From the IMG/VR virus record IMGVR_UViG_3300010354_003742, positions 1 through 29,072 of that record: a DNA stretch of 29,072 bases. The stretch is one strand, 5' to 3'. Below are positions 17,546 to 18,906 of this stretch, piece by piece; the stretch's first letter is position 1; every line of letters begins with the position of its first letter. The translations under genes and the position numbers were made by a program. Source of the stretch: a virus. A model generated the notes under the pieces. That model did no database searches, was not told the origin of the DNA, and saw nothing but the letters and a program-made list of their open reading frames with translations.

Positions 17546-17866
17546 ATGCAAGAGCCAGATGAAAGCGATGAAAAGCTAGCTTATTATTTAGAAGTCGGTG
17601 CCGTAAGTCTTGAGGGCATGGATGAAAATGGGGAAATGATCTATAGCATAACTGAACTTGCTAAAGAGATAGCCCCAGAACTATGGCAGTCTCATATAGA
17701 GTACGTAGATAGATCATTAATGGAATTATATGAACAAGGCTTAGTTGAAGTAGAGTATGATGAAAATTTAGAAGCCACACTTCATCTTACAGAAGAAGGA
17801 CACAGGGTGGCAAAAGAAAAGGGCCTTGTTGAAATGGATTTCAATAGGGATATTCCAAACGATTAA
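17546..17866 (+). CDS. small winged-helix-like protein
   Basis: The 106-residue protein follows a good Shine-Dalgarno (AAAGGAGA). Its centre resembles a winged helix: SITELAKEI as helix 1, HIEYVDRSLMELYEQGLV as the recognition helix, then a beta hairpin (VEVEYDENLEATLHLT) and EEGHRVAKEKG. The composition is strongly acidic, unlike typical DNA binders, so it may bind protein instead or mimic DNA. No specific family is recognised. Confidence 0.7.
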   Translation: MQEPDESDEKLAYYLEVGAVSLEGMDENGEMIYSITELAKEIAPELWQSHIEYVDRSLMELYEQGLVEVEYDENLEATLHLTEEGHRVAKEKGLVEMDFNRDIPND

Positions 17867-17887
17867 TTGCAGGGTAATTAATTTTTT
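17862..17887 (+). terminator. AT-only terminator-like hairpin
   Basis: ATTAATT (17862-17868) and AATTAAT (17876-17882) form a perfect 7-bp A/T stem with a 7-nt loop followed by five T. The stem is weak, so termination may be partial. Its left arm includes the stop codon of the preceding gene and its tail runs into the next promoter. Confidence 0.5.
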
Positions 17888-17895
17888 GATATAAT
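17867..17895 (+). promoter_or_regulatory. extended -10 promoter of the hsp20 gene
   Basis: TGATATAAT at 17887-17895 with TTGCAG (17867-17872) at 17 bp spacing. The -35 overlaps the preceding hairpin. The leader of about 55 nt is GC-rich for this window (17900-17922, with GGG and CCC that can pair) and ends in a full AGGAGG (17945-17950), predicting strong translation. Confidence 0.7.
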
Positions 17896-17956
17896 ATATG
17901 TGGGTCGCCGTAAGGGGCCCGTACAAATTAACTTATTCGCTTGAAGGAGGAATAAA

Positions 17957-18382
17957 ATGGTAACAACACATTTCGCATGGGACCTTTTCAAGGACCCATT
18001 TTTTATTGGATTTGATAGGGCTCTAGACACATGGAATCATGTTCAAAATGTATCTAGTGCAACTAACTATCCACCATATAATGTAATCAAGGTAGACGAA
18101 GACAACTTTGTTGTCGAACTAGCAGTCGCTGGATTTGGTAAGACAGATATTGATGTATCAACAGCAGACGGCAAGCTTACTGTAAAGGGAGAATTAAGCA
18201 CAGAGGATAACGATTCGAAGTTTATCCACCGTGGAATTGCTGCCCGTAAATTTACTCGTGAGTGGGCCCTTGGTGAGTATATGGAAGTAAAGGCTGCGGA
18301 ACTAAAGGATGGAATGCTTAAAATTGATATTGTACGCATTCTACCAGAAGAGAAAAAGCCTAAGACTATTAAGGTCAAATAA
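17957..18382 (+). CDS. Hsp20/alpha-crystallin small heat shock protein
   Basis: The 141-residue protein has an IbpA-like layout: a short hydrophobic N-terminus (WDLFKDPFF), the NYPPYNV entry to the alpha-crystallin domain, VVELAVAGF, HRGIAARKFTREWALGEYMEV and the LKDGMLKIDIV edge strand, followed by a lysine-rich tail. Small heat shock proteins bind unfolding proteins without ATP; phages that carry one are thought to use it during assembly or to buffer host stress. The strong Shine-Dalgarno and separate promoter suggest abundant expression. Confidence 0.93.
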   Translation: MVTTHFAWDLFKDPFFIGFDRALDTWNHVQNVSSATNYPPYNVIKVDEDNFVVELAVAGFGKTDIDVSTADGKLTVKGELSTEDNDSKFIHRGIAARKFTREWALGEYMEVKAAELKDGMLKIDIVRILPEEKKPKTIKVK

Positions 18383-18386
18383 ATAG

Positions 18387-18392
18387 TATAAT
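18387..18392 (+). promoter_or_regulatory. -10 element before the structured leader
   Basis: A perfect TATAAT follows the hsp20 stop. No good -35 is visible at 16-18 bp. If used, transcription would start near 18399, so the following structured leader would begin at the 5' end of the mRNA. Confidence 0.5.
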
Positions 18393-18397
18393 AAAGA

Positions 18398-18479
18398 TCT
18401 GCACCCCGTCACTGGGGAGTCGCAGACTATTCGGGTCGCTACCCGAAGGATGGACCTGAGCATGTCCCGAAACTGCTCA
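18398..18479 (+). ncRNA. structured 5' leader of the nuclease gene, candidate cis-regulatory RNA
   Basis: Three local structures lie in 82 nt: TCTGC/GCAGA (18398-18402/18422-18426) enclosing CCCC/GGGG (18404-18407/18414-18417); a perfect 7-bp stem TTCGGGT/ACCCGAA with a 4-nt loop (18430-18447); and TGAGCA/TGCTCA (18457-18462/18474-18479) with an 11-nt loop. The loop of the third contains a second CCCGAA (18466-18471) that could pair with the same TTCGGG, and GGAC (18452-18455) can pair with GTCC (18464-18467). The Shine-Dalgarno follows about 10 nt later. No known riboswitch class is claimed. Confidence 0.6.
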
Positions 18480-18498
18480 TTAAATTTTAAGGAGAGTT

Positions 18499-18906
18499 AT
18501 GTTTGAATACAGAGTTAAGCAGGTAACAAAGATAGTGGACGGAGATACTATTGATGTTGATATTGATTTAGGATTCAGCATCTCTTATTCACAAAGACTT
18601 AGATTGGCTGGCATAGATACGCCAGAATCTAGAACAACAGACAAGTTTGAGAAAAGTCTTGGAATTGAATCTAAGGATTATCTAAAGTCTAAATTTAAAG
18701 ATGCCAAGGATGTTGTAGTAAAAACAGAAAAACCAGATAGTTCAGAAAAGTATGGAAGAATACTTGGATGGGTTTATCTAGATGGCAATACAAAGTCAGT
18801 TAATGAGCAGATGATTGAAGATGGTTATGCGTGGGGATACATGGGAGAAACTAAGGTCAAAGATTTTGCAGCCTTAGCAGAAAAGAGAAAAAAGAGCGGT
18901 AAGTAA
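18499..18906 (+). CDS. staphylococcal nuclease-like (thermonuclease) protein
   Basis: The 135-residue protein has the SNase fold motifs: VDGDTIDVD with D14/D16, RLRLAGIDTPES with R35, D40 and E43, and EKYGRILGWVY with R87. The catalytic arginines and glutamate fall at the same numbers as in the Staphylococcus aureus enzyme. No signal peptide is present, so it should act in the cytoplasm, for example in host DNA degradation or DNA scavenging, using calcium. A strong AAGGAG precedes the ATG. The preceding leader may control expression. Confidence 0.9.
   Translation: MFEYRVKQVTKIVDGDTIDVDIDLGFSISYSQRLRLAGIDTPESRTTDKFEKSLGIESKDYLKSKFKDAKDVVVKTEKPDSSEKYGRILGWVYLDGNTKSVNEQMIEDGYAWGYMGETKVKDFAALAEKRKKSGK

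Follow-up and report, generated by a model that had tools for sequence, protein, structure and literature searches.

Which RNA element occupies the short stretch between a phage hsp20 gene and the nuclease gene that follows it, and which of the two neighbours does it serve? In the window (the whole 29,072-nt stretch of viral DNA analysed here), positions 18398-18479 lie between hsp20 and a staphylococcal-nuclease (SNase)-like gene, and an initial annotation had described them as a structured leader able to adopt two exclusive folds. With a probability of roughly 60%, our data point to a so far undescribed family of RNAs, an H-type pseudoknot of 27 nt found in phages of many host phyla, which would act as a portable intercistronic module, setting cistron boundaries by a generic mechanism that faces ribosomes or nucleases, and which is combined with promoters, hairpins, hammerhead ribozymes, the DUF2800 RNA and tRNAs. 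While this type of fold is familiar, the family as well as its spread and placement appear to be new.

Architecture of the hsp20-nuclease junction

All features of the junction lie on the plus strand. The upstream partner hsp20 (17957..18382, stop codon TAA at 18380-18382) encodes a small heat-shock protein, and the downstream neighbour (18499..18906) the nuclease; scored on the identical homologue L001, the former matches Pfam HSP20 (3.3e-19) and phrog_432 (3.4e-41), the latter Pfam SNase (9.8e-17) and phrog_452 (8.3e-48). A -10 promoter box, TATAAT (18387..18392), is found 4 nt past the hsp20 stop, as it also abuts this stop in relatives, and predicts an RNA start at about 18398-18400. It is followed by i) module A, a 5'-terminal hairpin of near-invariant sequence (TCTGC-ACCCC-gtcact-GGGG-AGTC-GCAGA, 18398..18426), ii) module B, a hairpin kept despite stem changes (TTCGGG-TCGCTA-CCCGAA, 18430..18447), iii) the linker GGAT (18448..18451), conserved between module B and the pseudoknot among the leaders compared, and iv) the H-type pseudoknot (18452..18478). 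The Shine-Dalgarno (SD) sequence AAGGAG (18489..18494) lies outside the pseudoknot and remains free; 20 nt separate the end of the pseudoknot from the nuclease ATG. In its terminase region, the window resembles Streptomyces phages such as Gilson (family Stanwilliamsviridae) at about 65% identity. Besides, hsp20 has a TATAAT and a short structured leader of its own (17890-17959), in which CTTATTC...GGAGGAATA could pair beside the hsp20 SD; this pairing recurs in a class of 37 members that are probably homologues of the hsp20 leader.

The GC-rich hairpins reported between the two genes are indeed present, as are TTCGGG (18430-18435) and both copies of CCCGAA (18442-18447 and 18466-18471). The folding energy is just mildly low (z -1.6, with 15 of 200 shuffles equally good), so that energy alone gives no justification for a structured element. 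The two exclusive folds built on the duplicated CCCGAA did not hold up: among 21 distinct leaders sharing the identical TTCGGG hairpin, the second CCCGAA occurs in 8 and is missing from 13, and the distal TTCGGG/CCCGAA helix (-6.5 kcal/mol) falls short of the local hairpin (-8.3 kcal/mol) in stability. Since the second partner is not conserved, we reject a two-state switch; the second CCCGAA is just a chance join of the S1 strand GTCC with variable loop-3 bases (CG/TC/GC/CC). Nor does GGAC/GTCC compete with the third stem, as had been assumed. This helix interleaves with GAGCA/TGCTC without conflict, and the two together form one H-type pseudoknot, in agreement with the suggestion of a pseudoknot close to the SD.

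Structure and covariation of the pseudoknot

In the window copy, S1 pairs GGAC with GTCC (18452-18455/18464-18467) and S2 pairs GAGCA with UGCUC (18458-18462/18474-18478), connected by L1 (CU, 18456-18457), the 1-nt L2 (U, 18463) and L3 (CGAAAC, 18468-18473). It shows all hallmarks of the family consensus NNNC-CU-GRGYA-N-GNNN-nnAAAC-UGCYC, namely a crossing S1 (NNNC/GNNN) and S2, CU as L1, a 1-nt L2 and an L3 ending in AAAC, and the core pattern CCTGRGYA-N(5-14)-AAACTGCYC matches once in the window versus 0.00 times expected from shuffles.

A pattern search that left S1 free apart from its closing C-G matched at least 120 stretches of viral contigs. Of 125 distinct matches, 98% have Watson-Crick bases at S1 pairs 2 and 3, realised by 37 distinct triplets, and 72.8%, versus 4.7% after shuffling, are complementary at all three variable S1 pairs. 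The A-U/G-C position of S2 is likewise coupled (106 A-U, 14 G-C, 1 G-U, 0 A-C). An alignment of 96 sequences has 97.8% of its cells paired, a fraction that drops to 25-42% in slid registers, and its covariation score of 0.484 compares with 0.150 in shuffles, none of 500 reaching it. Covariation, by which the initial annotation was to be judged, therefore supports a structured element, and the fold of covarying S1 and S2 is established by hundreds of compensating base changes, with S1 often comprising just 3-4 weak pairs across the family.

Among sequences found by pattern, the search itself dictates much of the conservation. When S2 was left free, GAGCA and GAGTA were the commonest S2 strands, the prevalence of GAGCA being partly search bias, and further helices (GGACA/TGTCC, TGGTA/TACCA, AAGCA/TGCTT, GAGTA/TACTC) came to light. 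L3 ends in AAAC in all of these variants, so that its conservation is more than a product of the pattern. The strongly preferred bases (CU, AAAC, GAGCA) could reflect recognition by a protein or a ligand. An intrinsic terminator can be rejected, because the pseudoknot is followed by no U-tract (T makes up 0.35 of the first 8 nt on its 3' side).

Against the 4227 families of Rfam 15, the whole window gave a tRNA alone at the gathering threshold, and 17860-18520 gave one chance match at E-values up to 5. Searches with 28 pseudoknot-bearing loci returned only tRNA, DUF2800 and Hammerhead_3, none of them over a pseudoknot. In line with the earlier proposal, no known riboswitch class matches at the locus, and strong covariation together with the absence of an Rfam match over the pseudoknot argues for a new phage RNA element. 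In the open literature we found no prior description of the pseudoknot family, the set of 224 motifs from 2017 being covered via Rfam only. The STAXI motif, in which two to three pseudoknots follow one another in tandem close to genes of DNA-binding proteins and integrases (Weinberg 2010, PMC2864571), is similar in being a pseudoknot-only motif of mobile-DNA neighbourhoods; in contrast, the phage pseudoknot is as a rule single per site.

Association with hsp20 and composition of the leader

Searches of IMG/VR with the nuclease and hsp20 yielded related phage loci that were unselected for the pseudoknot. In these, the 3' side of hsp20 carries the pseudoknot in 67 of 70 contexts, both with the nuclease next (48/49) and with another gene next (19/21), whereas the 5' side of the nuclease carries it in 57 of 58 cases with hsp20 upstream but in 2 of 42 without. 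Counted over all loci, the figures are 134/144 for the hsp20 3' side and, for the nuclease, 78/79 with and 4/67 without hsp20. The pseudoknot tracks the upstream hsp20 and, since nuclease loci without hsp20 mostly lack it, is not primarily a nuclease regulator; on the same association test (57/58 versus 2/42) we reject a nuclease-specific regulator. Several hsp20 relatives have no gene start at 60 nt or less from the pseudoknot.

Two arrangements account for all hsp20 junctions that hold a pseudoknot: a -10 box at the stop together with a distant pseudoknot (122), and no promoter together with a pseudoknot at most 25 nt away (14), with 0 for the other combinations. The simplest reading is that the pseudoknot has long belonged to the 3' side of hsp20, and that the promoter and modules A and B were probably inserted later, between stop and pseudoknot, in the lineage of the window. 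On this reading, the leader described earlier is a composite.

The leaders compared are modular: modules A and B come first, and the constant pseudoknot follows immediately 5' of the SD. Module A occurs once per record (12/12 records) and, of its 99 distinct copies, 93 have a pseudoknot within 130 nt on their 3' side, the others being mostly cut off or slightly variant; its covariation is weak. Module B shows compensating stem changes (TTCGGG..CCCGAA, GCGGG..CCCGC, GGGC..GCCC, ACGGG..CCCGT), and in some phages it is followed or replaced by GTCGGGGGAGACAGCGAC..AACTG. An optional module, GTCGGGGGAGACAGCGACnnTAAATAACTG, found in the leaders of L004, L018, L019, L038, L408 and others, may be a small pseudoknot with CAG/CTG across an A-rich loop. 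A structured-looking stretch, AACATTCCGCTATGAGAC...GTGGCTAATAG, takes the place of modules A and B between the hsp20-adjacent TATAAT and the pseudoknot in L068 (4922-5050), L047, L160, L162, L213 and L271. The hsp20 3' region also harbours a second promoter-borne RNA, TCCC(C)ACACAGGACCTTAG...TGTGTGGG (L068:5062-5155; L047, L056, L062, L213, L232), whose closing stem has compensating changes and which has no Rfam match.

Distribution and genomic placement

Among 21 virus records reached via the studied loci, 19 carry one to six copies each of the pseudoknot; 60 matches are listed in 21 virus records versus 0 for the reversed-pattern control. Another 106 stretches match in bacterial and archaeal genome contigs, comprising prophages, MAGs and isolates of many phyla; about half of these have an S1 of at least 4 pairs, so part of these matches are due to chance. 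A set of 301 Lactobacillaceae genomes gave 19 forward matches, spread over 17 genomes, versus 3 control matches. Annotated carriers are the Lactobacillus phages phi jlb1, KC5a, Lj771 and AQ113, with one copy each just 5' of the head scaffolding gene; the same position is seen in Lactobacillaceae prophages, where a further structured stretch lies between the two. In some of these prophages an intrinsic terminator is located directly 5' of the pseudoknot (L385:2976-3013, L178:1007-1043, L506, L510). By pattern, no copy was found in Synechococcus phage S-EIVl, which is related to two pseudoknot-bearing loci, or in Streptomyces phage Gilson, which is related to the window, and blastn of the L258, L187 and L229 stretches against annotated phages returned no relatives. 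The pseudoknot is also contained in CRISPR spacers, one in the 120-repeat array of L379 (897-964) and three in the 98-repeat array of L367 (1744-1811, 2998-3066, 5896-5964); at least four spacers of two arrays thus carry it, as expected of a common phage sequence.

According to placement counts for 214 sites, which are approximate owing to simple ORF calling, the pseudoknot is intergenic (6/214 inside a larger ORF of >450 nt) and has its upstream gene on the same strand in 192/214. A DNA-level element is unlikely in view of this strand bias. The gap from the stop codon to S1 has a sharp mode at 5 nt (26 sites) and 6 nt (15 sites), with none at 0-3 nt, and the upstream proteins of this 5-6 nt class are diverse. 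From the pseudoknot to the next start, the commonest gap is 20 nt (22 sites), the distance also found in the window. At these spacings, neither a terminating nor an initiating ribosome needs to unfold the pseudoknot.

Genes upstream of pseudoknots include hsp20, DUF932, DUF2958, SSB, ArdA and head proteins; downstream are genes for scaffolding, anti-restriction, endolysin and nuclease proteins. Some pseudoknots are followed on their 3' side by tRNA genes, -10 boxes, a type III hammerhead ribozyme (L282) or the DUF2800 RNA, all of which may be places for new 3' ends. The hammerhead was found by Rfam at L282:7541-7595 on the minus strand, and a hammerhead-like core was seen by eye in L180 after position 956. 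The DUF2800 RNA (RF02960) starts right after the pseudoknot in L306 (2824-3006), L339 (1691-1874) and L375 (1346-1527, minus strand). In one family (L286, L345, L348, L368, L384), a conserved ORF of about 20 amino acids, RFMIPRxAHCxxGCxxxS*, is located directly 5' of the pseudoknot, which its TGA stop overlaps; it is possibly a leader peptide.

Possible function as an intercistronic boundary

Spacings that tolerate ribosomes, unrelated flanking genes and varied downstream elements together favour a generic boundary role, and the great diversity of the flanking genes speaks against a gene-specific regulator. Our preferred reading, which we hold tentatively at a little below even odds, is an intercistronic boundary with a constitutive fold, serving to protect the upstream message at its 3' end or to keep cistrons apart. 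Structure, spread, placement and the link to hsp20 are shown by the data; for the mechanism, we infer that the pseudoknot, folded at all times and without switching, would most probably close off a cistron and bar exonucleases, and perhaps post-termination ribosomes, from passing from one gene to its neighbour. Its main effect would then be to shield the upstream mRNA at its 3' end once processing or termination has taken place farther downstream. In the lineage of the window, a promoter and two hairpins have probably been inserted between the hsp20 stop and the pseudoknot, which in consequence would additionally end a 5' leader of about 100 nt. Generic intercistronic structures that set or protect mRNA ends are known from the intergenic RNase III sites of T7 and from REP-type 3' hairpins; those are simple hairpins, whereas the phage element is a 27-nt pseudoknot with conserved loops. 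Against a boundary role, an S1 of 3-4 weak pairs may not stop exonucleases, and the Lactobacillaceae copies look like part of a 5' leader (terminator upstream in L178 and L385, scaffolding gene downstream). The short ORF with its stop inside the pseudoknot, seen in one family, also fits poorly.

The alternative that survives best, an unlikely one all the same, is that the element acts on ribosomes at the upstream stop codon, through recycling, blocked re-initiation or scanning, or a recoding-type pause. The -1 frameshift pseudoknots of luteoviruses and poleroviruses (BWYV, ScYLV) have an L1 of 2 nt, an L2 of 1 nt and an A-rich L3. With loops of 2/1/6 nt, the phage element shares their very short L1 and L2, their A-rich L3 and a position a few nucleotides 3' of a codon, but it is intergenic, lacks an extension ORF and frame constraint, and has different sequences. 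The 5-6 nt mode of the stop-adjacent copies falls within a stimulator spacer of about 5-9 nt and is close to the 6-9 nt typical of frameshift and readthrough pseudoknots (PMC3835772), while the window copy lies outside this range. However, many pseudoknots, that of the window included, are away from any stop, the upstream stops are ordinary (54 TAA, 27 TAG, 6 TGA), the stop-to-pseudoknot gaps show no frame preference, and in most cases no long extension ORF follows the stop (median about 7 codons). A readthrough or frameshift product is rejected on the last two grounds.

We give slightly less credit to a binding site for a phage or host protein that would repress downstream translation, by analogy with the T4/T2 gene 32 leader. 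There, an H-type pseudoknot in phage mRNA 5' of the start codon, the gp32 operator, serves one gene, 67 nt upstream of its start and followed by UUAA repeats (PMC3014915). The intercistronic pseudoknot, in contrast, is repeated one to six times per phage beside diverse genes, mostly 3' of genes, and has its own consensus. Besides the gp32 precedent, the conserved loop bases, the scaffolding gene 3' of the pseudoknot in Lactobacillaceae prophages and the 20-nt distance to the ATG in the window would suit a repressor site, but the genes that follow vary widely and are in places missing (tRNA genes, -10 boxes), the SD is left free, and nuclease genes without an upstream hsp20 lack the pseudoknot.

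It is improbable that promoter, module A, module B and pseudoknot form a small RNA of about 100 nt or a put-like antitermination leader with the pseudoknot as its 3' cap. The TATAAT directly 5', the single module A per record with its 3' pseudoknot (93/99) and the other promoter-plus-structured-RNA cassettes at the equivalent place in relatives agree with it; yet in the window no terminator follows the pseudoknot, an SD and a gene do, and modules A and B are missing from most pseudoknots of other phages.

The preQ1-I riboswitch is a small H-type pseudoknot with an A-rich L3 near the SD. A metabolite-binding riboswitch of this kind is highly improbable: size, topology, the A-rich loop 3 and the nearby SD in the window resemble it, but the phage element matches no Rfam riboswitch class, differs in loop lengths and conserved bases, has neighbours without a common pathway, reaches up to six copies per phage and, in the hsp20 relatives mentioned above, has no gene start at hand.

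If the boundary family proposed here is real, it would rank among the more widespread structured RNA elements of tailed phages, and the pseudoknot is small enough for Rfam-type searches to miss. It poses a testable question, namely how phages keep the expression of adjacent genes apart on long transcripts when the decay machineries of their hosts differ considerably, and the pseudoknot pattern would be usable for annotating the boundaries of phage operons.
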